From positions 38,870,503-38,934,502 of the forward strand of contig CP136065.1 of assembly GCA_032622095.1 (NCBI GenBank): DNA of 64,000 nucleotides. Reading direction: 5' to 3'. This DNA comes from Siphonodentalium dalli (lineage: Eukaryota > Mollusca > Scaphopoda > Gadilida > Siphonodentaliidae). A model generated the notes under the pieces. That model saw only the letters and a program-made list of their open reading frames with translations. It ran no database searches and had not been told where the DNA came from. Within the stretch, counting starts at the first letter, position 1. The number at the start of each line of letters is the position of its first letter. Positions 13,470 through 62,141 of the stretch are shown in pieces. Both the position numbers and the translations under genes were made by a program.

Positions 13470-13868
13470 TTAACCCTTTACCCAACAAAACGGCCAAAAC
13501 CGGCCAAATAAAGCTTCAACAGCCTAAAATATCTTCGGTCTGTCTCAATAGAACCATACAAATCTGGATATCATTGGAACCGGCTCCTTGACCACACTGT
13601 GATAGTTACAGTTATGCCCTGTGCCAATGCATTCTCTTATATATGCGAGTCGACCATAGGTCGCCTCACATATATAAGAGAATGCATTGGCCTAAAAACA
13701 ATCTTTTTTTAACACTTTTTACCATTTTGTTTACATTCTTTAACAATTTTATAATTTTTAATGTGTTAAGCCAATGCATTCTCTTATATATGCGAGGCGA
13801 CCTATGGTCGACTCGCATATATAAGAGAATGCATTGGCACAGGGCCCTTCTGTTGGGTAAAGGGTTAA
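13470..13868 (-). mobile_element. piggyBac-like MITE, family 1, copy A
   Basis: Flanked by TTAA on both sides with terminal repeats TTAACCCTTTACCCAACA and its exact complement at the other end. It is 399 bp and in reverse orientation to copies B-D. It contains two ~69-nt hairpins (13623-13691 and 13770-13838). TTAA target plus CCC-start ends is the piggyBac superfamily signature. There is no coding capacity; the open frames seen across it come from the palindromes. Confidence 0.9.
13623..13691. repeat. 69-nt hairpin module (copy A1)
   Basis: Arm gccaatgcattctcttata continues to tatgcgag. The apex is cgacc-ata-ggtcg and the arm is then mirrored. There is essentially one mismatch pair near the apex (t opposite c) plus one substitution. 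The same module recurs at 13770, 16343, 16493, 20848, 20996, 28919, 38260, 38397, 60406 and 61952. Confidence 0.95.
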
Positions 13869-14167
13869 CCATGGATTTGGTAATTCTTCCATCTATAACA
13901 TTACATCAGCGACATCGTTATCATCATCGCCGTCGTGTGACATCTTCCAATGTTTTTTTTTGTATGTTTCATTTGCTGGTTTTTGTTTTTATTTTGTTTG
14001 TTATGTTTTGATTTTTTGTGGCCACTATATGAACATTTCGTTATTTAATAACTTGTGTCATGTTACAGAGAAATGTGCATTTGGAACAAGACGCTCACAT
14101 TGTTCATCAAGATTCATATAGTAATTTATATATATACAGACTGATCTTGACACTGATTTGCATCTAT

Positions 14168-15134
14168 ATGTGGAATTTACACGAACATGACTTTTGGAAC
14201 TTATTTCCTATTCCTTATTCGCAAAAATGTACCGTTCGGTCAATACCGCGCATAGAATCACAGCGCACACCGGGGATACAACCTCGAGGGGTGAAAATGG
14301 GGCATGGACCATTTTCGAGACCGGCAAGTATTTCGGCCAATTTGACGGCATGGGCGTGTGCGCCCCATATACATCCACACACTCGGCGGTAACGTCCTGA
14401 AAGGGGTAAAACATATGGTATGGACCATTGTCGAGAACGGTAATAATTTCAACCAATTTGACGGCATGTGTGTGACGCCCGCCCCAAATACCCCCTAGAA
14501 ACATCCTCACTCTTCAATCCGCACCTCCGGGGGTACCGACCCGAGGAGGGTAAACATTGGGTATGGACAATTTTCGGGAAGCACCCACCACTCGCCCGCA
14601 CCCCCGTGGGGTACCAACCCGAGGGAGTGAAAATGGTGTATGGACAATTTTCGAGAACAGTAAGGATTTCGGCCAATTTTACGGCATGGGTGGGTGGCCC
14701 TCCCCAAATACCCATAGAAACACACGCAGCTCACAGCCCCGGGGATATATAGGGGGTATTAAGGGCGGGCCACCCACTCATGCCGTCATATTGGTAGAAA
14801 TCCTTACCGTTCTCGAAAATTGTCCATACACCATTTTCACTCCCTCGGGTTGGTACCCCCGGGTGAGGGGGGTTCTATGGGGTATCTGGTATGGATCACA
14901 CACCCATGCCGTCAAATTGGCTGAAATCCTTACCGTTCTCGAAAATATACCATTTCCACCACTGGGGTGGTACCCCCGGGGTGCGGGTGAGGGGCGGGTG
15001 TTTCTAGTGGGTACTTGGGGTGGGCCACCCACACATGCCGTCAAATTTACCGAAAGGTACATTTTTTTCGAAAAAAAAGAAAGAATGAGGAATATGGAAT
15101 AAGTTCCAAAGTCATGTTCGTGAATTCACTATGT
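14168..15134. mobile_element. Second foldback-type element with tandem subunits in both arms
   Basis: The ends are inverted: cacgaacatgactttt-ggaactt at about 14180 mirrors aagttcc-aaagtcatgttcgtg at about 15120. Each arm holds several ~100-bp subunits with tatggacaattttcgagaac, ggcatgggtgggtgg and gggtaccaacccgagg, meeting near 14750. It is markedly more GC-rich than its surroundings. It has no similarity to the 1-4020 element beyond the design. Target duplication is not clear. Confidence 0.65.
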
Positions 15135-15696
15135 TAAGCTGTATATACAACGTTTAGATACGTATAATGTGCATGGTGTTTTCGTACAGGCATGCATGCT
15201 TTGTCTTGAATGGTTAATCGAGACATTCGATGTTTTTGGGGCACCGCGCCGTTGTTGGACATGCATGCCTATACGAGTTGAAGAACCATTACCTTTATAG
15301 TCTTGGGTTTTATAAATGAGCACATAAAGCTCCTTTCTTTTCCCCGACATTTACGACATTTCTATTAAAATTTTAAATTTTCTCAACAAGAAAACAACGA
15401 CCTTCCAAAGAAGAGGTTTTGACAAGTTTATTGAGATCACGTGCAAATTAAATAGTGTTTTCGTGTGTCGGTTCGGATGTAAAGAGATGCTAAATCCTTT
15501 GTTTGCGGTAAACGCGGCCTGCTGAACTAGAAACAGTTAATTCAAATGCAACAGGTGTGCGCTAGCCGAAAATAACGGTCGAGTGACTTTGATAAAGAAA
15601 GCTTTCATTAATGGCGCGCAAAAACCAAGTAAATACCCGGAATTTGTGTATTGAGATATCTTGAATCAGATGAAAAAACATCGGTATGTGTCCGAG

Positions 15697-16155
15697 CAAC
15701 TACAAGTACTAGATCATGCCATGAATTCCTGTCCTAGCTACGCCCGTAGAGCTCATATTCCACCAGTACAAAACCTGGGAACTTTTTGATGTTCTGACCC
15801 GTTATGACAGGGAACTTTATAACATTGAACAAACAAGGCAGGGAATATATTTCTTTGTTAATAAGTGTTCCTCAATAATATACTTCACAGTGGGGAATGG
15901 TCCCAGCTGGAGATTGCATGCTTTTTGTGATTTTTGTGAGCTCACATCGAAATAAACATTCAATTAATTACCCGGGAGAAATTCCATAATTTAAGCAAAA
16001 TTGCTGGCAGTCACTTTAATCGTACAACTTCAATGTAATAAATGTCCCTGTCAACTGGGCACAACATCAAAACGTTCCCAGGTTTTGTTCTGGTGGAATA
16101 TGATCTCTGCGGGCGTAGCCAGAGTAGAGATTCGTGGAATGATCAAGTGTAGTTG
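15697..16155. mobile_element. MITE with ~80-bp imperfect inverted ends
   Basis: Left end caactacaagtactagatc, then atattccaccagtacaaaac-ctgggaac; the right end is its complement (gttcccaggttttgttctgg ... gtagttg). A related, partial copy lies at 56690-56990. No clear target-site duplication is visible, so the superfamily is unknown. Confidence 0.65.
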
Positions 16156-16312
16156 ATATCTTTGTGGTGTATCTATATATAGGAACACAGTCATAAAATC
16201 AATCATTACACTTCAACGATGGTCATAAAGTAATGTTACTTTAGACAGTATTCTCATCATTACAGCTACAGTACCTATAGGAACACCAGCAGTAGCGAAG
16301 AAATGTATAGGC

Positions 16313-16712
16313 TTAACCCTTTACCCAACAGAAGGGCCCTGTGCCAATGCATTCTCTTATATATGCGAGTCGACCATAGGTCGCCTCGCATATATAAGAG
16401 AATGAATTGGCTTAACACATTAAAAGTTATAAAATTGTTAAAGAATGTAAGAAAAAATGGTAAAAAGTGTTAAAAAAAAGATTTTTTTTAGGCCAATGCA
16501 TTCTCTTATATATGCGAGGCGACCTATGGTCGACTCGCATATATAAGAGAATGCATTGGCACAGGGCTAACTGTAACTATCACAATGTGGTCAAGGAGCC
16601 GGTTCCAATGATATCCATATTTGTATGGTTCTATTGAGACAGACCGAAGATATTTTAGGCTGTTGAAGCTTTATTTGGCCGGTTTTGGCCGGTTTGTTGG
16701 GTAAAGGGTTAA
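16313..16712 (+). mobile_element. piggyBac-like MITE, family 1, copy B
   Basis: TTAA-flanked, 400 bp, with ends ccctttacccaacaga and tttgttgggtaaaggg. Two hairpin modules (16343-16411, 16493-16560) are separated by an AT-rich spacer. The interior right half (gagacagaccgaagatattt, ggccggttttggccggttt) is shared with copies A, C and D. Its right TTAA is also the left TTAA of the next MITE. Confidence 0.9.
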
Positions 16713-16950
16713 AGGGGTACTGCACGCTAAATCCGCCCATTTATGGGACCATCTCCTTTTATACTCAACATAATATATGCAACAAATAAATGAATTTGAG
16801 CCATGGATGAGTGCAAAATGCACACATGTGGTCTATAAAGGATGCGAAAAACATGGTAATTATAATGAAAATTCATTTTCATTATAATGAAAATTCATTT
16901 TCATTATAATTACCATGTTCTTGGAGAATTAGGGAACAGTCCCCCTTTAA
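16709..16950. mobile_element. TTAA-flanked MITE, family 5, copy 1
   Basis: TTAA followed by aggggtactgcacgctaaat, ending cagtccccct-TTAA. The interior contains an AT-rich palindromic tandem (attataatgaaaattcattt repeated, 16857-16911). It abuts copy B of family 1 through a single shared TTAA. Confidence 0.75.
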
Positions 16951-17593
16951 AGCTGGTCTTGAAGATCACGTGGCTTAGTTGTCACCTATACACACACATT
17001 AGTGCTTTATTCAACGTGTCAAACCCATCAAGAAAAAAGAAATGTTTGTTGATACGAATATACTACACGACAGCCTGCATCTTTTATTCACCACAGTTAG
17101 GTCATCGGGAATATTCAAAAGTACATGCGAACTGTGTGGTAGTAAATAAACCTCAGCGAATAACTCATATTATAGTTGTGGTTGTAGTCAATTCACAATT
17201 CAATAAAATGATAATGTTTAATTGGAAACCACTAAATGAATACTATGTATGTGAAAGCTTTAAATTCGATTACCCTGAGCTAAGTCAATTTTATACATGT
17301 TTACGAAACTTCCATTTCAAACTATTATACTATTTTATGGCCATCAACATTAGTGACTAACCAACAAGATGACTGTTAAGAAAATCATGAAACCTTGAAT
17401 TTTACCAATGATAGCAGACGAGAGTTGATAATTTAAAATTAAGTGGAGCCCTTATTGAACCCAAACGTAATAGAATACCTTTTTCGACACCCGAAGCTGC
17501 ATGACTGTGTTCGTCTCAGTTTTATTCTTATTAGTGCGAGCCATAGAAGACAAGACATCGAACATAGTTCGTGTTTAATACGAGAGCGGGCCT

Positions 17594-17784
17594 TTAAAGG
17601 GGTACTGTACACTAAATTTCATTTTCATTATAATTACCATGTTGTTTGCATCATTCATAGAGCACATGAGTGTATTTTTGCACTAATCCTTGGCTCAAAT
17701 TCATTCATTTGTTGCATATTTTCTGTTGAGTATAAATAGAGATGGTCCCATAAATGTCCGGATTTAGTGTACAGTGCCCCTTGA
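17594..17784. mobile_element. TTAA-flanked MITE, family 5, copy 2
   Basis: Left end TTAA-aggggtactgtacactaaat; right end atttagtgtacagtgcccct-TTGA, so one target copy has mutated. The interior is homologous to copy 1 (ggaccatctc, gagtataaa, attataattaccatgtt) in the inverse arrangement. Confidence 0.75.
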
Positions 17785-18369
17785 CTGTGACAGTGATCAA
17801 CGAGAAATGTACACCATTTACTATAGTTATCAATGTCCGAAAGTCCAACAGACATCACTGCTATACACAGTGTAAAGAATTGTCTGATCAGAGAATCAAA
17901 TTCAACAGGTGGCCGCCTGTTGATTCGTTGTACGAGCTATGACATCTGTCGTTGGCGCCCGATTCAAATCTTATAGTGGCACGTGTGTATTCAGACAATT
18001 AAATGGATTTTATTTAAAACTCAAATTAATTTAAAGTGACACATGGCCATATTAATTCCTATATTATAGTATCTTCCTGTTTTCGCGATGATGCAAATGA
18101 CATCTGTGGTAGGAATTCGAGGTGGAAGTAATCTTTTAGCTGATAACTGCATGGTGGAAAGTATGAGCATATATATGATCATAAGTGAAATGGCTATGGT
18201 TGCTGTTGCAATAAATTTGTTACGACAAAGAGTTAATGCAGTCTGAATACACTTTAGATCAACGAATATCGCTATGTCATAACTAGGCATATGTGTATAA
18301 TGTTAACACAAACAGGGATTAAAGGGCATGGTTCGTTCGAACCCGAAAATTATATATATAATTATTTGG

Positions 18370-18465
18370 TACTTTACTTTAAACATATTTTATTGTAAAT
18401 TCATTTACAACGGGATTGGGGTACACGTTTTAACAACCCACAGTGTCCCCGCTCCCATATACAAT
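18370..18465 (-). repeat. Fragment homologous to a LINE 3' UTR
   Basis: The stretch aacatattttattgtaaatt ... gttttaacaaccca ... cccgctcccata matches 21214-21305, which is the 3' flank of the minus-strand LINE fragment at 21464. Probably a second 5'-truncated copy. Confidence 0.4.
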
Positions 18466-18476
18466 CTATATATATG

Positions 18477-18630
18477 TATGAATTTAAACATCTATATATG
18501 AATTTAAACACCTATATATGAATTTAAACACCTATATATGAATTTAAACACATATATATGAATTTAAACATCTATATATGAATTTAAACACATATATATG
18601 AATTTAAACATCTATATATGAATTTAAACA
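18477..18630. repeat. 20-bp tandem repeat, 8 copies
   Basis: Unit atgaatttaaacacctatat repeated eight times with c/a/t changes at one or two positions. Confidence 0.95.
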
Positions 18631-18639
18631 TATTTGGTA

Positions 18640-19510
18640 AGATATATCTCAAAACATATATAGGCGTACGATTTCCGAACAAACTCGTATATATATATAT
18701 AGTACTGAAAATACGTATTTTGTTTCTTATATTTTCCGGTAAATTTGAGTTCGTTTCGTTTTAAGGCACGTGCGGCCTTAGTTGTCGAAAATTTTCATAT
18801 TTGTTCCAATCACCGTAAACAGAAAAACATTAAAAAGCATATAGTTTCGTCCATATATACCATGACCATCACGTAAACAGCATGTTATCATAAAGACATA
18901 CTATATTTTACCTAAACAAGAGCCTGATTGTGTTACAGAAGATAGCACAATGCTACTGGCTAATCACACACAAATGGCATAAACGCTCTTTATTAGTTCC
19001 ATATCAGGAATTCACCAACAAAGAACGCTCTTTATGTTTACCATCATAATATAAACAAACACCAGAAAAGTAACTTTTTAAGCTTTTGTTTTCATAACAA
19101 TGGTCAAATATATGACAATAACATGCTGTTTATGCGATATTTCTTATTTGTATACGGACAAAGTCTGTCTACATTTTGATGTTCTTTCTGTTTGTGGCGG
19201 TTTTTGACGGGTGGAAATATTTTCACAGGATACCCACCACCAAGGCCAACCGTATCTTTAATATGTGCCTGTTCACAATGCACATGTTACAGACCATAGG
19301 TTGAAACTCTAGAGCTGTCATCGCTCTGAATCTATTACGATTCTTTAATGGCTAAAATGAAGAGAAAGGAGTCGATGCAAAGCTACCCATAAATGACACA
19401 AGTGAATCACGATAATTTACAACGGGTGCTCGGCGGCCTATGTCGTTAATGTGCATACCACATTAGGCGTCATATACGTCATCCAGAAATTGTGAATCTG
19501 TTGGGTAGCA
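18640..19510. other. No recognisable gene
   Basis: AT-rich sequence. The phrase acgctctttat occurs twice here and again at 38.2 and 38.6 kb, but no element boundary can be drawn. Confidence 0.4.
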
Positions 19511-19513
19511 TTG

Positions 19514-19865
19514 GGGTACGTTCATACACTGGCAACTTTGCACGGTATCGTTTGCAGGCATTTCGTCGTAGAAAACGATATGGTGCCAGAATATGAACGG
19601 AAACATGCATATAAGATGCATCTATATCAAAGCGATTTACGTGTGAAGTAATCTCTATAGGTTCCACCTGAACCGATGCCACCGGAATGCTGCCTGTAAA
19701 GAGCATGCAATTATATCGCAAGAATCAATGATACGGGCATTTGTAGGCAATGCCAGTAGCACCGTTACAAGCGGAACTACAGGAATTTTACTTCTCATGT
19801 GGTTTTCTATGACGAAATGCCCACAAAACACACCATGCAAACTTGCCAGCGTATGAACGTACCCT
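19514..19865. mobile_element. MITE with ends GGGTACGTTCATAC
   Basis: The left end gggtacgttcatacactgg-caactttgca and the right end complement (gcaaacttgccagcgtatga-acgtaccc) form an inverted pair. A second inner pair (gcatttcgtcgtagaaaac / gttttctatgacgaaatgc) confirms it. About 350 bp, non-coding. No target-site duplication was identified. Confidence 0.7.
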
Positions 19866-20817
19866 TAGTGTCAAGTTTGTCGGTTACTTATAGTATAGTA
19901 GAGTATAAATAGTGTATGTGGAGTGTATCGATTTCCCCTTCAAATTAACCCTCTGGTCAGGTTTATCCAACAACGCCGTGAATTGGTCTGCCGCCTATAT
20001 ATGTATAACGACTGACATAACTGATTCCACAATATAACAATCTATACCATATTATAGGAAAATAGTCTGAGTACACGGGAATCAGGGGACCGAACTTATC
20101 AAAGACCCTGTGTTATCGGATTCAACCATTTATGCATGTATTCCATGTCATAGCGGGTATATGCATGCTCTTCAGAAATGGAGGTAATAAACAAATACGG
20201 TCATACCGATATGTGTGGTCATGACGGAGATAGACGGATACACAAAAACAGACATCTCGGATAACCGGAGATATGAGTTCATGAGGTGGTGAATGCACAT
20301 AGCGAACATTGTGGCGTGTACTTGAGTGCGTACTGTTTACTTTAGGATGATTTATAAAAGTTCGACAAACAATATTGAAACCCCTCAACAGGTGGGTACA
20401 ATACGGGCTTCAATGATGGTCGAACTATATTTCAATACACGGCATTCTTTCGAAGATGCATGGTGAATCTGAAATTACATTGTCTATTTCGATGTTATAG
20501 GGAGAAACAGTATTGTCATGATTTGTATGTATAGATATTTAAAATATTTTTACAGCACTTTACAATTATACATTCGAACCTCGAGGACAGGTCTGTTGGT
20601 ACGGGGTCGCGGACTTGCGGTCTTCCCCAAACGGTTCACTATATAGTCCACCCTGGTTGGTTTAAACATTGATTGTTTATATCCACCAAATATATAAGTA
20701 TGTTACATAAGACACATTGAACATGGACATACATAAGGAATTGTTACAATGTATATGGTACAGTGTTATATATACGGTAGTAAGGGAGATCGACAGTAAA
20801 CATGTGGCTTTTTTTGT

Positions 20818-21217
20818 TTAACCCTTTACCCAACAGAAGGGCCCTGTGCCAATGCATTCTCTTATATATGCGAGTCGACCATAGGTCGCCTCGCATATAT
20901 AAGAGAATGCATTGGCTTAACACATTAAAAATTATAAAATTGTTAAAGAATGTAAGAAAAAATGGTAAAAAGTGTTAAAAAAAGATTTTTTTTAGGCCAA
21001 TGCATTCTCTTATATATGAGAGGCGACCTATGGTCGACTCGCATATATAAGAGAATGCATTGGCACAGGGCATAACTGTAACTATCACAATGTGGTCAAG
21101 GAGCCGGTTCCAATGATATCCATATTTGTATGGTTCTATTGAGACAGACCGAAGATATTTTAGGCTGTTGAAGCTTTATTTGGCCGGTTTTGGCCGGTTT
21201 GTTGGGTAAAGGGTTAA
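20818..21217 (+). mobile_element. piggyBac-like MITE, family 1, copy C
   Basis: 400 bp, TTAA at both ends, terminal ccctttacccaaca / tgttgggtaaaggg. Hairpin modules at 20848-20916 and 20996-21064. Nearly identical to copies B and D, suggesting recent amplification. It sits at the end of the LINE 3' region (21218 upward). Confidence 0.92.
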
Positions 21218-21463
21218 ACATATTTGTATTGTCATACAATATTACAAGAGGGATCGGGGCACAAGTTTTAACAACTTACATCCGCCCCTCTCCCATTAAC
21301 ATTTTAACAAATACAACGTAGATGACGAACATAACATATATACAGGGTGATGTATGGTGTGTTTGTGATTGATGTCAGTCCTATCCTGCTTTTGAAATTT
21401 CATCTGAGGTAGTCAACATTTGTAACGCACAGGAGGATCGCCAATATTTTTAGCAGAGGGGGC

Positions 21464-21780
21464 CTAATTAAATCGTTTCGTTGATGAAATGTATGAATAA
21501 ACAAAATGGAAAAGAATTTCATTGGGTCGATTCGATTCTGATGATATCCCTGTGAGTAAGGAGGAAATGTTTGATATTATAAATTGGTGGGCTGCAATCT
21601 TGTTGAAAATTTCGCATCTTTCGGTTGCATACAGGGGGCACTCAAAGAAATAATGAAAGGCATCTTCGACTTCGTATCCACATGTGCATTTAGTGGTATC
21701 AGAGATAAACTTGTTGTACATATCTGATTACAATAGTTGCGAATTGGCTTTTCGGGTGTCGTTCTCCCCATGTATCATCA
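21464..21780 (-). pseudogene. C-terminal fragment of a non-LTR retrotransposon ORF2
   Basis: The minus-strand frame (85 codons) contains KCTCGYEVEDAFHYFFECPLY, the Cys-Cys-His-Cys zinc-binding end typical of LINE reverse transcriptase ORFs. Just upstream an in-frame TAA and a frame change break the coding sequence, and no reverse transcriptase palm motif is present. It is a dead, 5'-truncated copy. Its 3' region probably runs down to 21218. Confidence 0.65.
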
Positions 21781-22185
21781 AGGGCCCCTGTAAAATGTAT
21801 ATATAAATCATCCTGGGATTTTCCGATCGGGACAGGAAAGTATAGATAGATAATTCGGATATTACATGCATGGGTTCTGGGATTTTTTGGATATTAAGAA
21901 TTAATTTGCTATACGATGTTGGTGGTCCTGCTGATTTGCTACGATACTGTAGCCGATTCTGTTAAGTAAAAGTGGCGGTATTATTCCTAAAGTATTAGTA
22001 TTCCTAAACTATTTTCATATATAATGGTGGCGCTGTGTTTGCATATAACGACAGGGAAAGTCATCTCAATTGTGACTGGCTTGCAACAACCATTATTAGA
22101 CTTTGTATAACAAACCGTGTCACCATTTGCAATTGAAGTGTTTGAATAGATAATATATAATGTTCACGTAAAGTCTGTTTGATAC

Positions 22186-22400
22186 TTAATAATGGTGAAG
22201 TACACGATAGTCCACAAATTCCTTAAATTGGTCCAAAAAGTCAACATTAACTATACAGTTAGGAAGAGCATTCCACACATGTCGGATTATCTGTGTGAAA
22301 AGGTACTTTCATATATATACAGGGTCTCTGATGCTACTTTGGTCGATCACCATATGTTTTATCATGCCTATTGTCGCTGTATAAGTACGAAAGCGCATTA
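22186..22400 (-). pseudogene. C-terminal end of a second, different LINE ORF2
   Basis: On the minus strand the frame ending at TAA (22188-22186) reads FTQIIRHVWNALPNCIVNVD, then FLDQFKEFVDYR. This fits the WN-x-LP ... FK-x-x-(L/V)D tail found at the end of Jockey/CR1/L2-type LINE proteins. A stop and frameshift precede it. The 53-bp minisatellite starts directly at its upstream side. Confidence 0.55.
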
Positions 22401-24400
22401 GGGCCATCCGAAACACCACCGCACCACAAAATATACAAATATACAACTCGTTAGGGTCATCCGAAACACCACCGCACCCCAAATATACAAATACACAACT
22501 CATTAGGGTCATCCGAAACACCACCGCACCCCCAAATATACAAATATACAACTCGTTATAACGTTTACCAACAACTCATTGCAGCGACTTACAACTCGTT
22601 ATGATGACTTGCAAGTCATTATAACTAGTTGTAAGTTATTATAACGAGTTGTAGGAAGTCGTTATAACGACGTTATACTATAAAGAGTTGTGTATTTGTA
22701 TATTTAGTGGTGCGGTGGTGCTTCGGATGGCCCTAATGAGTTGTGTATTTGTATATCTGGGGGTGCGGTTGTGTTTCGGATGACCCTAATGAGTTGTGTA
22801 TTTGTATATTTGGGGGTGCGGTGGTTTTTCGGATGGCCCTAATGAGTTGTGTATTTATATATTTCGGGGTGCGGTGGTGTTTCGGATGACCCTAATGAGT
22901 TGTGTATGTGTATATTTAGTGGTGCGGTGGTGTTTCGGATGGCCCTAATGAGTTGTATATTTGATTATTTGGGGGTGCGGTGTGCTTCGGATGACCCTAA
23001 TGAGTAGTGTATTTGTATATTTGAGGATGCGGTGGTTTTTCGGATGACCCTAATGAGTTGTATATTTGTATATTTGAGGGTGCGGTTGTGCTTCGATGAT
23101 CCTAATGAGTTGTGTATGTGTATATTTGGGGGTGCGGTGGTGTTTCGGAAGACCCTAATTAGTTGTGTATTTGTATATTTGGGGGTACGGTGGTGTATCG
23201 GATGACCCTAATGATTTGTGTATTTGTATATGGCATTATGGGGGGGGGGGTGATGTGGTGTTTTGGATGACCCTAATGAGTTGTGTATTTTTATATGGGG
23301 GGTGCGGTGGTGTTTCGGATGGCCCTAATGAGTTGTGTATTTGTTTATTTGGGGCTGCGGTGGTGTTTCAGATGACCCTAATGAGTTGTGTATTTGTATA
23401 TTTAGGGGTGCGGTGGTGTTTCGGATGGCCCGAATGAGTTGTGTATTTGTTTATTTGGGGCTACGGTGGTGTTTCGGATGGCCCGAATGAGTTGTGTTTT
23501 TGTATATTTGGGGGTGCGGTGGTGTTTCGGATGGCCCTAATGAGTTGTGTATTTGTATATTTGGGGGTGCGGTGGTGTTTCGGATGGCCCTAATGAGTTG
23601 TGTATTTGTATATTTGGGGGTGCGGTGGTGTTTCGGATGACCCTAATGAGTTGTGTATGTGTTTATTTGTTGGGTGCTGTAGTGTTTCGGATGACCCTAA
23701 TGAGTTGTGTATTTGTATATTTGGGGGTGCGGTGGTGTTTCGGATGACCCTAATGAGTTGTGTATTTGTATATTTGGGGGTGCGGTGGTGTTTCTGATGA
23801 CCCTAATGAGTTGTGTATGTGTTTATTTGTTGGGTGCTGTAGTGTTTCGGATGACCCTAATGAGTTGTGTATTTGTATATTGGGGGGTGAGGTGGTGTTT
23901 CGGATGACCCTAATGAGTTGTGTATGTGTTTATTTGTTGGGTGCTGTAGTGTTTCGGATGACCCTAATGAGTTGTGTATTTGTATATTGGGGGGTGAGGT
24001 GGTGTTTCGGATGACCCTAATGAGTTGTGTATGTGTTTATTTGTTGGGTGCTGTAGTGTTTCGGATGACCCTAATGAGTTGTGTATTTGTATATTTGGGG
24101 GCGCGGTGGTGTTTCTGATGGCCCTAATGAGTTGTGTATTTGTATATTGGGGGGTGAGGTGGTGTTTCGGATGACCCTAATGAGTTGTGTATGTGTTTAT
24201 TTGTTGGGTGCTGTAGTGTTTCGGATGACCCTAATGAGTTGTGTATTTGTATATTGGGGGGTACGGTGGTGTTTCTGATGGCCCTAATGAGTTGTGTATT
24301 TGTTTATTTGGGGTGCGGTGGTGTTTCTGTTGGTTCTAATGAGTTGTATATTTGTATATTTGGCGGGGGGGGTGCCGTGGCAGTTCGGATGGGCCTAATA
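22399..24400. repeat. 53-bp minisatellite with a head-to-head inversion
   Basis: The unit runs gaccctaatgagttgtgtat, then ttgtatatttgggggtgcgg, then tggtgtttcggat (53 bp). Three units are inverted (22399-22555), followed by a ~130-bp spacer made of acaactcgttataac-like palindromes (22556-22688), then about 32 forward units to 24395. Some units alternate between two types (tttgggggtgcgg and tttgttgggtgctgtag), giving a ~106-bp higher-order period around 23620-24240. As 53 is not a multiple of three and the unit has no stops, the overlapping open frames here are not genes. Confidence 0.95.
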
Positions 24401-24545
24401 CGTTTTCGTAGTATAATTTTTTAAGACGCAACAGGAAATAGCGTAGCTTTGTTGATATTATAATATTCTATTTTTATTTTTGTACACCTCTAGAGGGTCA
24501 CCATGAAGTCTAAATAAAGGCGGTATATAAATGAAATTATACAGT
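24400..24545 (+). repeat. LINE-like 3' tail
   Basis: The end reads gtacacctctagagggtcac, then aataaaggcggtatataaat and a short atgaaat tail, resembling the 3' ends of non-LTR retrotransposons. The phrase cctaata-cgttttcgta at its left is related to cctaatg-cgctttcgta at the other, inverted end of the minisatellite. Confidence 0.4.
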
Positions 24546-24698
24546 TGGGAATTTGGTGTGATTCAAAGAGTGTGGGTGTGAACTTGAAAATTTAAAGCTG
24601 ACATCCCCGAAAGAAAAAACCCTTATAGCCACGGTCTTGAAACCCCATGATACCTTAGAAAATCAAAACCATCAATTAACTCGCGCTTTCACCTTTAG

Positions 24699-25039
24699 TG
24701 TACAAGAAGCTTTCATATCCATACAATAATGTTGCAACGAAAGTGCAAATTGCAGGGCAGTTAAGCGCTTCTGTAGTCTCATCAATCATTGCCGAGCCAG
24801 GTGAATTATTTACGTGCAGCATAAATCCCCCATCAGAAGATTACCGTTCTTTGTTATCATTAGCAAAATTCAAAACTGTTCCCGAAACAGTTAATTTGAA
24901 AATAAAATTCAACAGGTGGAATGATATCAAAATAACCGTCGATGGAGATTTTGGCGGGAAGATGAAGACATATGTTCAGAATGTCTCGCTTACCACCTTG
25001 CCTGTAACAACCAGCCACGACACTCTTCTTTCTTTTTGA
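24699..25039 (+). other. Exon-like open frame of ~113 codons, unassigned
   Basis: An open frame ending at TGA (25037-25039) starts just after an acceptor-like ctttcacctttag. The protein (contains NLKIKFNRWNDIKITVDGDF) has a balanced composition unlike the repeat-derived frames nearby, but I recognise no family. No partner exon was found. It may be a lone last exon or chance. Confidence 0.2.
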
Positions 25040-25399
25040 CCATATGGTTATTAATTCTGCCTAATTAGATCGAATGACTGACATGACGAAAGTCCCGAAT
25101 AGCATATATCGCGTATACAAAAGCGGGCCGCTAAACACCTAGCCTCCAGCTATCGATAAGTGATCGTCGTATTTTGTAATAGGGTCCTTGTAATTATTTG
25201 CCGAGAATTGACAGGTAAATCGTTTTACCGGTCGAGATTTTCTCGAAACTTTGTGTATTATACACCCTCGGGTTTGAAACTGAATATTTTTTTAATTTTC
25301 TCCCATATTGTGAGATGGGAGGTTTTGGGAAAATAACCAACAATTTTAAGACCTATATGTTATATAGAGGATCTTTAATGAGTCTCAATTATATACGAT

Positions 25400-25510
25400 A
25401 TATATTAACCGAGTGCACTAAATTCGAACCGAGACAAGCTTTAGCGAGGCTTGAACCGAATTTAGTGGACGAGCTAAATCCACTTCGTATACGAGAATTG
25501 CGACGAATTT
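25400..25510. repeat. Imperfect hairpin, ~54 nt
   Basis: cactaaattcg...gacaagctttagc pairs with gaggcttgaaccgaatttag-tg. It is the only copy seen in the window. Upstream, around 25320, is unassigned. Confidence 0.5.
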
Positions 25511-26049
25511 GAGATAATTTTTTTATCAAATTATCACATTTTAGCAAGGGAAAACTGTCTCGAAACGGCTAGGGTAAAAATAATAATATTGATGTCACCA
25601 CCAAATAAGAAGTAAAGACAACTTCAAGAAAAAATATAGTTCAATTTTAAATGTGTCTTTTCATGTTGACAAAATTGTTCAACCACACGTATCACACATG
25701 CATGTGTATCTCAAGTCAACACTAAATAAGTCAACACCAAATGAATATCATAATTATATTTTTAAAAACATAATAATAACACTGGTTGATAGCAAAGGCG
25801 CCAAGCTCTTATGTCACTGTGTGTGCCGATAATACACGTGTCTCTTACTAAAAATATGAGGCCGGGTTTACGTGATAATTATGTGATAAAATGTTGTTTC
25901 CTTCGATTTATTTGGTCTTTGATACTTAAGTATATACGTGTGAGCATCGATGTCTGTAGTAATTAAGAAATATATGCTGATGTGCTTGCGTTACATGCAG
26001 TATGAATGCACGTTGATCTGACATTTTTAATGGGACGCGAAAACTTGTC

Positions 26050-26300
26050 TCACCCAGCAGCCGGTCCAACATGCTCAACAGTTGGACATTTCATGCCTGG
26101 CACAACATTATATAGTTGGACATTTCAGAACAAAGGTGGGTTGAATTTTTCTGATATGTTGCTATTCCAACCAGTATATAGTATGAAAGTTGTGTTATAG
26201 ACCAACAATCGAATATGTTTTACTTTCTGCCATGTTGTTTGTACTGCAATGGCCATCAGTTGAACATTTCCAACAATCGACATTGGCAACAGTAATTGGA
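26050..26300. repeat. Dispersed repeat with ttggacatttc phrases
   Basis: The repeated phrase gttggacatttc occurs at about 26082, 26117 and (as gttgaacatttcc) 26260. It is related to the interior of the GGGACGTGGC family. Edges are unclear. Confidence 0.3.
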
Positions 26301-27044
26301 AGGTATGTATTTTACATGGTCACACCAATCATTGATAGCATTAGTCGCCTGCGCACGATCGGGCAATTTCAACAGGCGAGACAAGTGAGCAGTTATAAGC
26401 CATTATCAAACTAAATATTAAGACAGACAATACCGGTTCGTTGAGATGCCACGGCTAGTTTCAGAGCGAGCTCATGTGATAACATTCAATTCATGATAGC
26501 CTAGCTTTATGATACTTACCCGAAATTTGAGATTCTTTGGTTCTTTGGCTCGAGTCTTCTCTCTCAGACTCTCTGGCTCTATTAGTGGCTCGGATTAGTT
26601 TTTTTTTTATTTTGTCGCTAAATGTCCATGTGCGCAACTACAGATGGAATGCTGGCGTCAAGAAATAGTCAACTTCTTCCTTTCATCGTTGATTTGTGCA
26701 AATACAACGTTCTAGAAATATCGGTCCCACGCGTACGATGTGTTTTGTATCCACATGTTTTGCAAACTACCGCATGTTGATTTCTTCTTATAGCGTTCGC
26801 ATAAAGTGGCATCCGTATAATGCACGTAACAATCACCTATCACCAAACATAAATTACGCACATGTGTCACATGGTCACATGTGTCAATGATAATATTACC
26901 GTGGCGTGATTACTGAACGCACCACTTCCATGTGTGTACTATATAACGCGTGCATGTGTGTTACGTGATATAAACATCCAAAAAGTTATAACAAAATTTG
27001 TTTGCATATAGATTTTAATAATTATGAAAGCTGATAAAACCAAT

Positions 27045-28867: not shown

Positions 28868-29349
28868 TTAACCCTTTCAGTGCCAGGTCCGATTTTTGTA
28901 TCAACCCATATACCCTGTGCCAATGCATTCTCTTATATATGCGAGTCGACCATAAGTCGCCTCGCATATATAAGAGAATGCATTGGCCTAACAATTTTCA
29001 TCATTTGTTATTATTTTTTACAATTTTTTACAATTTTAATAATTTTTTCTTATATTCTTTAACAGACTTATTTTGTAGGTTTAGTGCCAGTGAATCTTAC
29101 GTTTTTCATGGGCATCAAAATTATTACTATGAATATTTGGTGATAGTTTTGAGTTATAACATGCCCCTAAGGTTTTATCCAGTTTGTTTTTAAATTCGCT
29201 ATAGCATGCTTAAGCTTACCCAAAAAAAAAATTTACCCAAAAACAATCTAAAAAAACTAATTTATTTTTATTTTTATTTTTTTTAGGGCCGATTTTAAAG
29301 ACCGTAAATTAGGGCCGATGAGATCGGCCCCTGGCACTGAAAGGGTTAA
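28868..29349 (+). mobile_element. piggyBac-like MITE, family 2, carrying the shared hairpin
   Basis: TTAA-flanked, 482 bp, terminal repeats ccctttcagtgccagg / cctggcactgaaaggg, which differ from family 1 beyond the first six bases. It contains one 69-nt hairpin module (28919-28987), almost identical to those of family 1. Confidence 0.88.
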
Positions 29350-35219: not shown

Positions 35220-35490
35220 TTAACCTTTTTTATACTAATATGAGACACGGTGCCTAACTCCCGAAATGGAAAAATGGGATAAATACTCATTGACGAGTAG
35301 TTCCCTTATGGAATGCTCAGATAATAAGTTCAACAAACGACATATGGTCGTTTGTTGAACTTATTATCTGAACAATAATCTCACCAATGAATATGAACCA
35401 TTCTGCTCTTGCATTATATTTTCGCATGGTTGTCGTATGCTTTTATTGCATGAACACCATTCCAAATGAATAATATATCATTCCAATGAA
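35220..35490 (+). mobile_element. piggyBac-like MITE, family 4, truncated copy
   Basis: Begins TTAA-ccttttttatactaa and carries the family 4 hairpin (35318-35370, arm cagataataagttcaacaaa). It can be followed to aatatatcattcc, which matches aatataccattc in the copy at 43678. The expected right end is missing because a Helitron-like 5' end begins at 35491. Confidence 0.65.
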
Positions 35491-38229: not shown

Positions 38230-38618
38230 TTAACTCTTTACCCAACAGAAGGGCCCTGTGCCAATGCATTCTCTTATATATGCGAGTCGACCATAGGTCG
38301 CCTCGCATATATAAGAGAATGCATTGGCTTAACACATTAAAAATTATAAAATTGTTAAAGAATGTAAGAAAAAATGGTAAAAAAAGATTTTTTTAGGCCA
38401 ATGCATTCTCTTATATATGCGAGGCGACCAATGGTCGACTCGCATATATAAGAGAATGCATTGGCACAGGGTATAACTATAACCATCACAATGTGGTCAA
38501 TGAGCCGGTTCCAATGATATCCATATTTGTATGGTTTGATTGAGACAGACCGAAGATATTTTAGGCTGTTGAAGCTTTATTTGGCCGGTTTTGGCCGGTT
38601 TGTTGGGTAAAGGGTTAA
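38230..38618 (+). mobile_element. piggyBac-like MITE, family 1, copy D
   Basis: TTAA-flanked, 389 bp, same orientation as B and C. The left terminus carries one change (ctctttacccaaca). The spacer between the hairpins (38260-38328, 38397-38465) has lost about 11 bp relative to C. Confidence 0.9.
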
Positions 38619-39962: not shown

Positions 39963-55783
<15,821 letters not shown>

Positions 55784-55990
55784 GAGTGAACATCAATGAC
55801 ACAAACAGATAAAGTTCAACAATAACACGCAGTAAGCCACGAGCTAAATAGTTCGAAGTATTGACAACAAATACACGTTGCTTCAGAATGTCTCAGGATT
55901 TTGTAAACGCCGCCTTTATTGGAAAACCCTCACCGCGCACGCGTGAAAACTTCGACCAAACAAATCGCTCGACGATTGTTATGCTAATTT
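55784..55990 (-). promoter_or_regulatory. Candidate 5' UTR/proximal promoter of ovo
   Basis: Sequence just upstream of the SNAG ATG. No good TATA box is seen at a suitable distance. A CpG-richer patch occurs around 55950 (cgcgcacgcgt), unlike the AT-rich surroundings. The transcription start cannot be placed. This is inferred from position only. Confidence 0.3.
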
Positions 55991-56689
55991 TAATATTATA
56001 ATAGCGGTAGATTCCGATATCACCTTCCAGTAAAGAACCGTTGACTGCTAATCAAAAATCTATTGTTAGATTTCCGAGCGGTATGAATGTTTACTCGGAT
56101 AGCAGTGGTGGAGGGTATTATTATCCAAATATATCGCCACGAAGCGTGAAGTTTACAACCTATCGTTCATTCATATTCCCAGCTTCCCTTTATTCTTACC
56201 ACAAAGGATCATAAAAATTTATGTTACGCGACTAGTTTTATCATGGAGGTGAGAACGAGCTCACGGAACATGAATGAAGCTTCACCGTGGTTTATTACTA
56301 AAGTTCATTAACTTACCGATAAGCTGGTAGACAATAAATTTTAATCCCTGCAATAATTACCCGAACGCTCAGGTAACATCGAACTCGTTGGATATCTTAT
56401 CAAGTTTCGTTGAGCTCGGATTTAACTTTACTACCTGATCAGAAAGATCCTAATGAGCTAATATAATTTGTTTCGTCACGGATTAACGTGTTTGTGATAA
56501 GATTAAAGGGAATTTACAGGTTGAAGTAATTGAATTATTTCTCGATTAGTTCCAAATTAAGAAAAAAATCTGGTGAAATTGTCTAGTAATAAACAGTTCC
56601 CGGTTAGATTAACACTGCCCAGCAGGCCTGGCTGTCTTCATTTTCAAGAGAACCAATTCCCTCGAAGGTGGTCATGCGATATAACGTAC

Positions 56690-56990
56690 AAGTCTGTAGA
56701 TCATTTCACGAACCTCTAATCTGGCTAACGTCCGTAGAGATCATATTCCACTAGTACAAAACCTGGGAACGTTTTGAAGTTTTGACAGGGAACCGTATAA
56801 AGTGGAAAAAATAACGCGGGGAATACATTTCTTAGTTATTGTATAATAATGTACTTCACTGTATGTGAAGGCCCCAACTCGAATTTACCCGATTTAAGTG
56901 ACTTTTTCAGCGAACTTGCTTTGCGTCGCTTACAATTATGGAATTTCTCCTGGGTAATCAATTCTATGTTCATTGCGATATTCTTACAAG
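56690..56990. mobile_element. Partial copy of the 15697 MITE, upstream of ovo
   Basis: tagagatcatattccactag, then tacaaaacctgggaacg and gacagggaac match the left arm and interior of 15697-16155. The right arm is not found. It lies about 0.9 kb upstream of ovo exon 1. Confidence 0.6.
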
Positions 56991-57679
56991 TTTAATAAAA
57001 CGTGATAGTAAACATTGGAAAAAGTCAAAGCATTGAAAATTATTCTGACCAAACTATTTGAATTAACTACACGATATGCGATGTTTGTTGATCAATCACT
57101 GTAACAGTTTTGCTCACATAACAATTGTTTCAAACCGAGGAATTTGGTTATTGGAAAAAAATATATACTGAATATAAGAACATAGGTTATCTATTTATCC
57201 ATGTTCTTCTTAGTGGTGATGTTTTATATATGTTGCACATTTACCACTTTAAGATTCGAATCTAATGTCTGCATAAAATTAAATCACAGGTAAACCCGCG
57301 GGTGCTCGTGTACACACATGTATATTAGTAAATATAAATTCGTTGATACACACCATATACCATATATTGGTAAATATATTATCTGATTATGATGAGTAAA
57401 CAAGTATACACACATTAAACGCGACATCGATGTATTATAATATTTATCATAATGATTTTATGTGTATGTATACATGTACATGTATTGATGATACGTAATT
57501 GTGTCATATGTATTGTCTCTGTAATGTCTTTCATGATGACCAGAGTTACTATTAAATTGAATTGTGTACAGAAGTGCACACATCGAACGGGTCATTGATT
57601 TATTACTGTGTATAGTCGTTCCAGTAGCTATAACGAAACTTTCAGTTGATATGGGTGGAGGAAAGACCGCACTGAGTGT

Positions 57680-58215
57680 TAATTCCACTCAACTGAACAT
57701 CGAACCTACGACCAACGGAAAATTAGATGACAAATTTGTCCAGATATACGAATCAGTCACCCGATTCGCGCGCATTACAAATGTACGCCTATCGGTATTC
57801 AAACCCGCTTCGCCAGCGCCGGATATATAACAGTACATATAGTGGGTTTTCGTTTGTTAGGGTGTACAACTTTGATTTTTTATCTGCATCCCCTCAAACT
57901 AGAGACTTTCATCTCCTGGTAATTATAGTTACACCCAAGTGGGCTGGAATTTTGGCACCTGAAACCATCACAACGCTCTCAACTCATTGTCGAAATTAAG
58001 TTTTAAACTGTTGAAAACTCTGACCAAATTTGGGACAGGACACCCAATCTAACTCTGGGCATTTTCGATAGGAACTTAAAAAATAAATTTTAGACTGAAA
58101 TTAAACAAAAAAATTCATTTGTTTTTATTCCACTCAACTGAACATCGAATCTACGACCACCGGAAAATTAGATGACAAATTTGTCCAGATATACGAATCA
58201 GTCACCCCATTCGCG

Positions 58216-58273
<58 letters not shown>

Positions 58274-58600
58274 CAGTACATATAGTGGGTTTTCGTTTGT
58301 CAGGGTGTACAATTTCGATTTTTTTATCTGCACCCCATCACACTAGAGACTTCCATCTCCTGGTATTTATATTTACACCCAAGTGGGCTGGAATTTTGGC
58401 ACCTCAAACCATCACAACGCTCTCATATCATTGTCGGCATTAAGTTTTAAACTGTTGAAAACTCTGACCAAATTTGGGACAAGACACCCAATCGAACTCT
58501 GGGCATTTACGATAGGAACTTCAAAAATATATTTTAGACCGAAATTAAACAGTCAGGACAATTTCGTTTCAAAAATTCATAACAATATACATTTATATTA
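57680..58600. repeat. Tandem segmental duplication, ~450 bp x 2
   Basis: Copy 1 (57680-58126) and copy 2 (58127-58600) share ttccactcaactgaacatcg at the left and ctgttgaaaactctgaccaa near the right. In copy 2 a unique stretch has been replaced by an (AT)n run. Confidence 0.85.
58219..58272. repeat. (AT)n microsatellite
   Basis: About 54 bp of uninterrupted alternating a and t inside copy 2 of the duplication. Confidence 0.95.
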
Positions 58601-59740
58601 TGGATTTGGTGACTTTCCTATACTTGTAGATGTTGTGTGAGGCATGACAACATTTCCAACTGTTGACAATTTTGACAATTTGGGAATTGGGGGGGGGGGG
58701 GTGGGTAGAACCCCACACCCTGTCACCATGTCCCTTGGTGGCAGGTGGGGGTTTCTCATTCCCTCGATATAATTCTGTTCTCTTGAGCCTACAACGTTCC
58801 CTTCTACTATTCACAGCAATCCCCACGGGAAATGCCAAGGGTACTTCACAAAATATCATTAGTTTAGCTAATTTAGTAGAGTGTGATAGTAAGTGATCTT
58901 ATCGACTGCCAAACTGTCCTGGTTAAATACATGGGTGCATGGCAGCTGGTGGTCTTCGATTTTGTCCACATCAATCCGTTATCTTGAACTATAGTGTACA
59001 TTCCTCGGACAATTTAGTTCAACCGTTTGGGGAAACCCATGGGACCCGCGTATTTTCGTAGAAACATAAATGAAATCCCCAGGGGGGACAAACTGTGTAA
59101 ATGATAAGAAATAGACTAGAGACATATAGCTTCTCACAAGTGTCATACACGTTACTTCATGTGAACGTATTGTTTCATTATCACAAAGTTCTCCACTATT
59201 GGAAGTATATTATCTACATAACAATTAGTATCGATCACCGTAAAAATATGTTTCAATTTGAGAAAATTAGACCCGAATGATTCGGTCATGTTCTTTTCAC
59301 ACTGAAAAACAAATAATCCAACAATTATTATCTGGTGCCCACTTCCGTTCTCAGCATTATGCGAGTATATTAAACAGTTAATCGGAAACCAAATTTACGC
59401 CGCAGGCACAAGAATAGGGGCATGTTAGCAGAAAACAATAGTATACCTATTAACCACAGCACTTATGGTGTTCCACGTGGAACATTTTAGTTAACGGTAT
59501 ATCATTGTTTGCAGAAACTGTTGTCCAACGTGTTAGACGCCTCGGGTTGAAAACAGTTCTGGAGAGCGATTCGGGATATAGCACCACAGTTGAGCTGAAT
59601 CAACAAGCTACCGTTAGTGGCTGCAATGGTTGTTTGCTGTACGCTAAAACGTCACCCGTCAGTGTGATCTTCCGGCGCTTGTTGGCGGTATTTATTAACA
59701 CCGGACATGTCAACAAGGCTCTAAAAGAACATACAGAAGG
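58601..59740. other. No recognisable gene
   Basis: 58630-58745 contains diverged phrases of the GGGACGTGGC family and a 13-G run. A frame starting near 59505 after an acceptor-like ttgtttgcag runs into the trinucleotide repeat and is not recognised. Confidence 0.4.
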
Positions 59741-59745
59741 CGACA

Positions 59746-59787
59746 TGGTGATGATGATGATGATGATGATGATCATCATCATCATCG

Positions 59788-59825
<38 letters not shown>

Positions 59826-59878
59826 GTCGTCGTCGTCGTCGTCATCGTCATCATCGTCATCATCGTCATCATCGTCAA
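59746..59878. repeat. Trinucleotide repeat (ATG)n-(ATC)n-(GTC)n with a self-complementary centre
   Basis: Nine atg units meet catcatcatc in opposite sense, then cgt/cat mixtures follow. The two halves are complementary and can fold back. Homopolymer Met or Ile runs in open frames here are artefacts of the repeat. Confidence 0.95.
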
Positions 59879-60305
59879 GGCGAAGGGACCTGCAAAATAC
59901 AGTCCAACCATCCTATATTCTCACCCGGCTTTCGGTCGGAAACGACCAACTATACCATATCACCATATCATCATCGTTATAGGGTGAAGCCACCTGAACA
60001 TTGCAGGCCTTCAACCGGAAACGACTCAACCATCATAATCGTCATAATCATCATCACCACCATCATAGTATACGGAACTAGTCTTTCGACTTTTGTTAAA
60101 TTTCCAATATATTCTGGTAGTTCACATACATATTAAGTTTGAATTTATATAGGTATTTTATTTAGAGCGCTTCATATAGGCCAATATTCGTGCAGGGTAA
60201 TTTTTTGATAAGGGATATTTGTTAATTTATGTGGATATATTTGTTGTTATTGTGACGACGGTCTCGTGTGGACGCTTTAAGTCATTAAACTGTTAAATAT
60301 ATAGT

Positions 60306-60524
60306 TTAGCACTTTCATGACTGGAGCTTCCTGATGTTTTGCGAAAACCCTGTGCCAATGCATTCTCTTATATATGGTCTAACAATATTTACCTTTACAT
60401 TGTAAGCCAATGCATTCTCTTATATATGCGATGCTCCCTATGGAAGACTCGGATATATAAGAGAATGCACTGGCAGAGGGTTTTTAATGCTGCATCAGCG
60501 CAGTTCCAGTCACGAAAGGACTAT
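60306..60524 (+). mobile_element. piggyBac-like MITE, family 3, degraded copy
   Basis: Left end ttag-cactttcatgactggagc, right-end complement atag-tcctttcgtgactggaac; both target copies have mutated. It carries a half hairpin arm (60354-60377) and one full hairpin module (60406-60474) with several changes at the apex. Confidence 0.65.
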
Positions 60525-61531
60525 TTATTTTTATCTCAAACAGAACACATGTGTTCTTTACAAGTAAGTATGTGCATGAACAATATGTTTATAAAGTTTA
60601 AAGTTGTTTTACTTTTGTTTGATTCAACTTATAAAACATGATATCTACATGGACTGTTTATCGATAGTTTTCCGTGATTCAATAAAGGTTCAGTCAAAGT
60701 GTTATGCTTATACCTGAGAAATATGACTCACTCTGATTAAGTTTGATACTATATTTATAGGCATGATAACCGCCACACCGACATGTCAACATGAATACGT
60801 TTAATGCAGACTTTCAGCCCGGTGTACATCATTTCCAAATGTTCATAACTGTGATGTTCTGTAAGCGGAAAACTAATACTCTATACCAGAACCATTTGTC
60901 TTGATCACAGAACACATATGATCTCAGAATATCCCTCTTAATATCTCCACCTGAAAGAATTTCTGAATTGGTATCCGAAGGAATGTATAAAGAAGCACTA
61001 TATTTATCGAAATAATATCTTACCCACGACAAATATTTAAATACCTCTCTGACGCTTTCAACAAAAGAAATAACTTTTTATATAGACATTAAACTACTTA
61101 TTATGGTAATGGTTAACACATATATACAACGAATCAGAATGAATGTTTTAATTTTTATTTTTATTTTGCAATTTGATTTAGCAGGAATCGATACGTAAAA
61201 TATTCCTTATACGTATGCGAAAATATTATATTAAGCGTGACATATAGGCCTTATTGGCCGGGTTTTTACTGTATACTGTTCTCATTATATTTTGTATTAT
61301 GCGTACACATGTCACGTAAATAAATGATATATATCTCTCTCTGTTCTACACAGAACATGTATTGGTAGGGTTCCGCTCTACTTAGAACACATCCGACGCG
61401 TCATGCGTACATTTTTGTTTTAACAATGTAGTATTGCTAATATGATTGCATATATATATATACAGGTTCTCAAATATATTCCATATAATGCGGGGTACCG
61501 GAATCATCCGCGGGGACACACTTTTAAAAAC

Positions 61532-61791
61532 CCTTTCTATTCTAAATTGATTTCCCCATTCACTTATAAAAGTATATATTGGAATTATCTATTATTCATT
61601 TGGAGGGGATGTTCAGTAAAAATGAGCAGACGGCAGTATGACAAAAAGATAATGCAAGTGCAGAAGTATTAATATTCTTTGGTGGGAATGTTCAGGTAAT
61701 AAGTTCAACATGGTCGTTTCGTTGAACGTATTATCTGAACATTTCCTTAGGGAACTACTCGTCAATGAGTGGTTAGTATAGCAAGGGCTAA
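61532..61791 (-). mobile_element. piggyBac-like MITE, family 4, third copy
   Basis: Left terminus aaccctttctattctaaatt; right terminus ggttagtatagcaagggctaa. The internal hairpin lies near 61691-61740 with arm ttcaggtaataagttcaaca. It is in reverse orientation to the intron 2 copy. The TTAA duplicates are imperfect. Confidence 0.7.
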
Positions 61792-61898
61792 AACATAGCA
61801 CAATTATATTCGGTAGACATGCAAACACAGAAAGTGTAATATATTTTCATGAATCAAGTTCATGCTAATCTGTCAGAATGAATGAATATATATAACTG

Positions 61899-62141
61899 TT
61901 TACCCTTCCATGACTAGAGCTTAGTTAAATTTTGCGAAAAAAAAAAACTGTGCCAATGCATTCTCTTATAAATGCGAGTCGACCATAGGTCGCCTCGCAT
62001 ATATAAGACAATGCATTGGCCTAACAAATGTTATATTATTTTTTTTAATTGTTAAAGAATGTAAGAAAAATGAAAATAATTATAAAACAAATGTAAGGTA
62101 ATTCACTGGCACTGGCACAGCTCCCGTCATGAAAGGGTTAA
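61899..62141 (+). mobile_element. piggyBac-like MITE, family 3, better copy
   Basis: Ends TTTA-cccttccatgactagagc and gctcccgtcatgaaaggg-TTAA, 243 bp. It contains one hairpin module (61952-62020) with the usual apex cgacc-ata-ggtcg. Confidence 0.8.

Follow-up and report, generated by a model that had tools for sequence, protein, structure and literature searches.

The closest described systems come from a coral and from the piggyBac transposons. According to the available part of the report on Acropora, the coral CMITEs are TTAA-flanked miniature inverted-repeat transposable elements (MITEs) of piggyBac type with mostly CCCTTT tips; they are about 100 bp long, have a 75-bp core and were estimated at approximately 1,600 copies in A. 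millepora (PMC2872659). Between families, the interior of these elements is better conserved than the terminal inverted repeats (TIRs), tandem arrays occur, and that part of the report leaves the origin of the core unexplained (PMC2872659). For piggyBac itself, the accessible text describes a palindrome at bp 17–33 of the end (near bp 25), to which the cysteine-rich C-terminal domain (CRD) of the transposase binds as a dimer (PMC7351741). In piggyBat, subterminal palindromes recur three times on one end (PMC11707139). As far as these sources go, CRD dimers bind such palindromes (PMC7351741, PMC11707139), which are repeated inward in piggyBat and differ in sequence between piggyBac and piggyBat (PMC7351741, PMC11707139, PMC13405395). 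Here we describe MITEs of the scaphopod mollusc Siphonodentalium dalli, found in a 64,000-nt stretch (positions 38,870,503 to 38,934,502 of contig CP136065.1, assembly GCA_032622095.1), hereafter the window; the genome that holds it comprises 2.23 Gb in 9 contigs. We found that the same 69-nt hairpin core lies behind the tips of three TTAA families (F1, F2 and F3) and behind the tip of a TA-flanked family (F5), and exchange of this core among end types could be shown in part.

The original prediction, which was made from the window sequence alone, had assigned 11 complete hairpins plus a half copy to seven elements, had distinguished three terminus types among them, and had stated that the termini agree only in ccctt(t). 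These statements were confirmed. F1 is represented by four window elements with ends TTAACCCTTTACCCAACA, F2 by one with ends TTAACCCTTTCAGTGCCAGG, and F3 by two with ends CCCTTTCATGAC and partly decayed flanks (TTTA/TTAA and TTAG/CTAT); CCCTTT or CCCTT is the sole sequence common to their tips. All 11 full hairpins have the same orientation relative to the outer flank and show 0–7 mismatches to the commonest 69-nt form. Two apex subtypes, A and B, were distinguished, the latter reading CTCCC-ATA-GGGAG. The elements and hairpins are located in the window as follows.

13470..13868, minus strand: F1 element, ends TTAACCCTTTACCCAACA, two hairpins
13623..13691, plus strand: hairpin, type A apex, F1 long side
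13770..13838, minus strand: hairpin, type A apex, F1 short side
16313..16712, plus strand: F1 element, two hairpins
16343..16411, plus strand: hairpin, type A
16492..16560, minus strand: hairpin, type A
20818..21217, plus strand: F1 element, two hairpins
20848..20916, plus strand: hairpin, type A, no mismatch to the commonest form; used for folding
20996..21064, minus strand: hairpin, type A
28868..29349, plus strand: F2 element, ends TTAACCCTTTCAGTGCCAGG, one hairpin
28919..28987, plus strand: hairpin of F2, type A, centred on bp 82 counted from the tip
29312..29330, minus strand: palindrome GGGCCGAT-CTC-ATCGGCCC, bp 16–34 of the F2 right end, centre at bp 25
38230..38618, plus strand: F1 element, two hairpins
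38260..38328, plus strand: hairpin, type A
38397..38465, minus strand: hairpin, type A
60306..60524, plus strand: F3 element, decayed flanks TTAG/CTAT, half and full hairpin
60354..60376, plus strand: half hairpin, one arm, 23 nt
60406..60474, minus strand: hairpin, nearest to the type B apex
61899..62141, plus strand: F3 element, flanks TTTA/TTAA, one hairpin with type A core
61952..62020, plus strand: hairpin, type A

The commonest form of the hairpin consists of a 27-bp stem followed by a T/C mismatch, 5 bp and a 3-nt loop, and 1–5 of the 33 possible pairs are unpaired in each window copy. When the copy at 20848–20916 was folded as DNA, 32 pairs and a 3-nt loop were obtained (−35.4 kcal/mol, z −15.6) and 0 of 200 shuffles folded equally well; the hairpin is not a product of chance. 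The block common to the families exceeds the hairpin and comprises ACCCTGT-hairpin-CTAACA and part of an AT-rich spacer, including TGTTAAAGAATGTAAGAAAAA; the best F1–F2 pair aligned over 142 nt (87%) and the best F1–F3 pair over 123 nt (88%). Besides, the exact word TTAACCCTT occurred 11 times in the window (0.94 expected), each time in a hairpin-bearing element if a fourth TTAA family, F4, is included. Among TTAA-bounded window elements with 14-bp TIRs at ≤2 mismatches, 6 of 8 were of CCCTTT type (four F1, F2 and F4). A hairpin 23-mer had no occurrence in IMG/VR or in GTDB contigs, a tRNA search found none, and a literature search for six hairpin and spacer strings was negative.

The arrangement of a conserved core under divergent ends, correctly recognized in the window, recurs elsewhere in the genome. 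Exact genome-wide matches numbered 133,654 for a hairpin 22-mer, 91,612 for the F1 tip, 7,916 for the type B apex and 6,783 for the F5 junction, with 0 for each reversed control. We also sampled 20 places of 10 kb, picked by round coordinates except for two adjoining the window, and obtained 26 hairpins at ≤16/69 mismatches, single arms and degenerate copies in loci L008, L010 and L014 being left out. Assigned to the nearest of seven flank probes, a procedure that cannot return “none”, the outer flanks were F1 in 12 cases, F3 in 8 and F5 in 6, so that hairpins were not confined to family 1; low probe scores were judged by eye (L009 1161, 0.38; L015 559, 0.44; L004 2618, 0.50; L014 3670, 0.64). 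F2 was found in the window and in L021, L044 and L047, and an F3 copy at L008 3307 had the tip TTAACCCTTTCATGAC. Two of the six F5 hairpins (L004 2618 and 2905) lie inside a scrambled element of F4 and F5 pieces (L004 2460–3060), in which F4-hairpin pieces surround an F5-type double-hairpin core. Direct tandem arrays of the whole hairpin plus a 28-nt linker, with a period of 97 nt, were present in the overlapping loci L029 (1995–2257) and L030 (2386–2648). A 22-nt tandem array of 6.3 copies, whose unit is one hairpin arm, was observed within an F3-type element (L008 2374–2512), and in G000:C1:842617-920840 hairpin spacing alternates between ~6,188 and ~4,987 nt, a pattern resembling a tandem ladder whose ~11.2-kb units contain the element.

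The F5 tips (TGTGACCCGCCATATCAAATCC) were preceded by TA in 5 of 5 occurrences, derived from three elements of which two were seen at both ends; we take this family to be mariner-like. As F5 is flanked by TA and F1–F3 by TTAA, the core crosses transposon types. In the sample, all 8 F3-flanked hairpins had the type B apex and all 18 F1 and F5 hairpins had type A. F3-like tips with a type A core were found at window position 61952 and twice in L027; F3-like tips thus carry A or B cores, indicating that tips and cores recombine. The apices were compared among 57 hairpins at ≤14 mismatches (34 distinct sequences), some of them from L021–L050, loci that were chosen by hairpin match. The change from A to B consists of two compensated pairs, 30/40 (GC in 17 distinct sequences, TA in 14) and 31/39 (AT in 19, CG in 12). 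The T/C mismatch was kept in 33 of the 34 distinct hairpins, which speaks against steady copying from arm to arm.

F4, with ends CCCTTTCTATACTAA, accounts for four further window elements. Two of their hairpins are near-intact with a different stem, one has a damaged apex and one is reduced to a single arm:

5780..5990, minus strand: old truncated F4 copy, single hairpin arm left
35220..35490, plus strand: F4 element, right end not recognizable, different-stem hairpin
35317..35371, plus strand: F4 hairpin, apex CGACATATGGTCG
43678..43942, plus strand: F4 element, TTAA at both ends
43727..43793, plus strand: F4 hairpin, apex CGACCTATGTTCG on the minus strand
61527..61791, minus strand: F4 element, hairpin apex damaged

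Among the described window elements, F4 queries matched F4 places only, and the F4 stem is unrelated to that of F1–F3. The 13-nt apex is nearly common to both: CGACATATGGTCG and CGACCTATGTTCG each differ by one mismatch from the F1–F3 apex CGACCTATGGTCG. Random palindromic apices were as close to CGACCTATGGTCG in 278 of 2,000,000 cases; the likeness was noticed after looking, among a handful of window hairpins, and we therefore estimate the corrected chance to be nearer 1e-3. Relative to the flanks, the apices of the two better F4 hairpins (35317–35371 and 43727–43793) have opposite orientation, suggestive of a flipped loop (CGACATATGGTCG compared with CGAACATAGGTCG, the latter being nearer to the reverse complement).

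Kolobok tips are given as 5'-RR in the available part of a further source, and the combination of TTAA with CCC tips therefore fits piggyBac (PMC9587614). From their TTAA target and CCCTTT tips, F1–F4 are identified as putative non-autonomous piggyBac-type MITEs. The genome contains 128 matches to the piggyBac transposase domain (PF13843), many of them without stops, and we read a single 1,150-nt flank for each of 8. A TTAACC search that took no account of palindromes led to L052, L053 and L054. Palindrome centres were at bp 28 and 74 in L053 and at bp 24.5 and 68.5 in L054; L052 showed no palindrome and was dropped as a tip. Three other tips are weaker evidence because the palindrome was already in view when they were located by eye: L057 (centres at bp 24.5 and 58.5), L058 (24.5, 68.5 and 112.5; the first was read by eye, overlapping palindromes having hidden the site from the script) and L051/L055 (34.5 and 53). 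The L051/L055 tip after TTAA occurred 311 times genome-wide (control 0). If its tip is placed correctly, L057 has GCGGGA at bp 11–16, motif and position being as reported for piggyBat. In random stretches, a site at bp 23.5–28.5 was obtained in 2.1% of draws.

For these 8 of 128 matches, with one flank each, the tips resembled MITE tips for F2 only: TTGAGTGCC stands at bp 5–13 of L051/L055 and, in the form CCCTTTGAGTGCC, at bp 5–13 of the L021 copy of F2. Taken jointly, the tips of the four MITE families were more symmetrical than expected at bp 25 (P 0.005), where the excess was larger than at any other centre from 16 to 59. The palindrome of the F2 right end stands at the position described for the CRD site of piggyBac in the text available (PMC7351741), and by eye ACGTC-TTTT-GACGT was read near bp 25 of the element at L014 4231–4633. 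The hairpin centres lie at bp 79–84 in F2, F3 and F4b, where an inner palindrome might stand. An exact placement of hairpin centres at the second CRD position (68.5) was also considered and failed on the measured centres.

We compared divergence among nine F1 elements from the window and from chosen places, selected by both tips and the short-side hairpin arm at ≤3/23 mismatches, with the second hairpin unfiltered. Pairwise difference was 0.030 for the hairpins and 0.059 for the long inner flank (site permutation P 0.0155), with intermediate values for the spacer (0.045) and the tips (0.033 and 0.046). Conservation of the F1 hairpin thus exceeds that of the inner flank by a factor of about two, which is not a dramatic contrast. 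The filter on the short-side arm favours conserved first hairpins (0.038; the unfiltered second hairpin gave 0.022). A 14-element version (P 0.0021) is biased because it includes loci chosen for the exact hairpin 22-mer, and the nine-element version is fairer. Equal divergence of hairpin and flank, which would have told against the original prediction, was not observed in F1, though in F4 hairpin and tip were equally diverged (0.17–0.20) and the remainder more so (0.29–0.40).

The explanation we tentatively prefer, with confidence that falls somewhat short of even, is that piggyBac-type MITEs share a hairpin core under differing tips, that cores and ends recombine, and that the hairpin is kept as a candidate CRD-like site. 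A template switch to the core of another element may occur during repair after excision or when replication stalls at the palindrome, and each set of ends would then be mobilized by whichever transposase recognizes that tip. With less certainty, the hairpin may be kept because its centre would offer the transposase a symmetrical site to bind, corresponding to an inner copy of the CRD-dimer palindrome; a strong core and a minimal CCCTTT tip would then suffice for mobility. The hairpin may plausibly represent an enlarged inner CRD site, a reading that cannot apply as such to F5.

Several observations weigh against this explanation. F5 is flanked by TA and not TTAA, yet it carries the hairpin in thousands of copies, so a piggyBac CRD site cannot explain the hairpin there. 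The hairpin is far longer than a 14–19 bp CRD site; its centres are at bp 61 and 184 in F1 and at bp 121 in F4a, with none measured at 68.5. The excess symmetry at bp 25 arises mainly from F2, and a strong palindrome is present in the F2 right end only. The palindromes near bp 25 of the gene families themselves differ from the hairpin apex, a likeness being seen by eye only in L054 (CGAC-ATAA-GTCG). Besides, the gene-flank tips were deduced from one end, and for four of the six tips (belonging to three of the five families) the palindrome was in view; two of the eight flanks read (L052 and L056) had no tip with a palindrome, and none of the eight, read on one side over 1,150 nt, contained the 69-nt hairpin. 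The element at L014 4231–4633 is of TTAA/CTCTTT type and has no hairpin. The double change between A and B is a single subfamily contrast rather than many independent events, the equal divergence of F4 hairpin and tip has been given above, and in the four window F1 copies the hairpin was not clearly less variable (variable sites 3/138 vs 10/153).

The F1 site counts and the lack of the hairpin in the eight transposase-gene flanks would also suit a core that is a mere passenger, captured by several MITE families via template switching and without a role in mobility. This alternative is quite possible, if clearly below an even chance; under it, conservation would be apparent because captures were recent and copy number is huge. 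The presence of the same core in the TA-flanked F5, and an F5 tip with no hairpin behind it (L004 8140), point in the same direction, but the lower hairpin diversity in the nine F1 elements, the subterminal placement near bp 80 in F2, F3 and F4b, and an apex common to the unrelated F4 stem argue against it. Two of the proposals made in the original prediction, a module captured repeatedly and a structure selected for transposition, are both live. A bolder view, which we regard as rather doubtful, is that the hairpin core is a selfish cis-acting module that changes its ends and is carried in turn by piggyBac-type and TA-type systems; its palindrome would help any transposase or repair process, and the core would be the long-lived unit of inheritance.

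It is improbable that the double-hairpin block (ACCCTGT...ACAGGGT) constitutes an independent transposon that was inserted into several MITE families, a nested element as the original prediction had also proposed. The ends of the block are indeed inverted repeats, with CCCTGT as outer border and CTAACA as inner border, or close variants, in the listed copies, but all 26 sampled full hairpins had outer flanks nearest to known element types and no target duplication around the block was seen by eye. A similarly low probability is assigned to descent of F1–F3 from a single MITE whose tips diverged under a change of transposase without core exchange: tips beginning with CCCTTT or CCCTT and the similar tip-to-hairpin spacing of F2 and F3 agree with it, whereas the unrelated tips and TA flanks of F5, the presence of both A and B cores behind F3-like tips, and a long F1 flank unlike that of other families do not. 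That the hairpin is transcribed and processed into microRNA (miRNA)- or small interfering RNA-like products under selection is more improbable still, for a very stable fold (with DNA parameters) and two compensated pairs between subtypes A and B are set against an Rfam search of the window that gave no match at gathering scores, an exact 22-mer in more than 100,000 copies, and the structure of usual animal pre-miRNAs, which is unlike a near-perfect stem with a 3-nt loop.

Other features were observed in the window. Pieces with TTAAAGGGGTACTG ends (16709–16945 and 17594–17782) belong to another inverted-repeat family adjoining F1. A 254-nt palindromic element at 51226–51479 has ATTGGAAC, an 8-bp repeat, on both sides, presumably as in hAT elements, and hairpins similar to it recur in L004 and L010. 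A minisatellite with a period of 53 nt, its array partly inverted, occupies 22396–24400. An open frame of 451 aa on the minus strand (43968–45323) resembles a coding exon and had no sequence match in Pfam or PDB.

Since the ends of a MITE are regarded as determining its mobility, classification usually follows them. In the present elements stability resides in the core, which is very numerous and crosses end types. Compared with the CRD palindromes of piggyBac and piggyBat, as covered by the source texts at hand, the palindromes of the F2 right end and of several gene flanks are likewise symmetrical subterminal sites near bp 25 (PMC7351741, PMC11707139, PMC13405395), whereas those sites measure 14–19 bp and the hairpin, a candidate binding site, measures 69 nt with its centre near bp 80 (bp 61 and bp 184 in F1). 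The nearest parallel is provided by the coral CMITEs, the only such case recognized in our literature search. To judge from the available part of that report, both have a core common to families with different TIRs, and both form tandem arrays, here of hairpins (PMC2872659). New elements arise in both from combining TTAA elements, but in the coral CMITE-IN a complete CMITE has been inserted at TTAA and lies between direct repeats, an arrangement not seen here (PMC2872659). A coral core 60-mer gave 0 matches in this genome, in a search that skips common words; the coral core and F4 have 12 nt in common (CATTGACGAGTA). Palindromes in the coral core did not exceed chance (426 of 2000 shuffles reach them), and we therefore make no claim of CRD sites in it. 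The position and symmetry of the hairpins suggest a concrete and testable answer to the question that the coral paper, in the part available, leaves open, namely extra transposase-binding palindromes (PMC2872659). Unlike the coral core as described there, the core in S. dalli is a near-perfect 69-nt hairpin, single or double, has 133,654 exact 22-mers and is also carried by a TA-flanked family (PMC2872659). What the present case adds to the coral CMITE kind is the hairpin form of the core, a much larger copy number, passage of the core into a TA-type family and an apex common to an unrelated stem.

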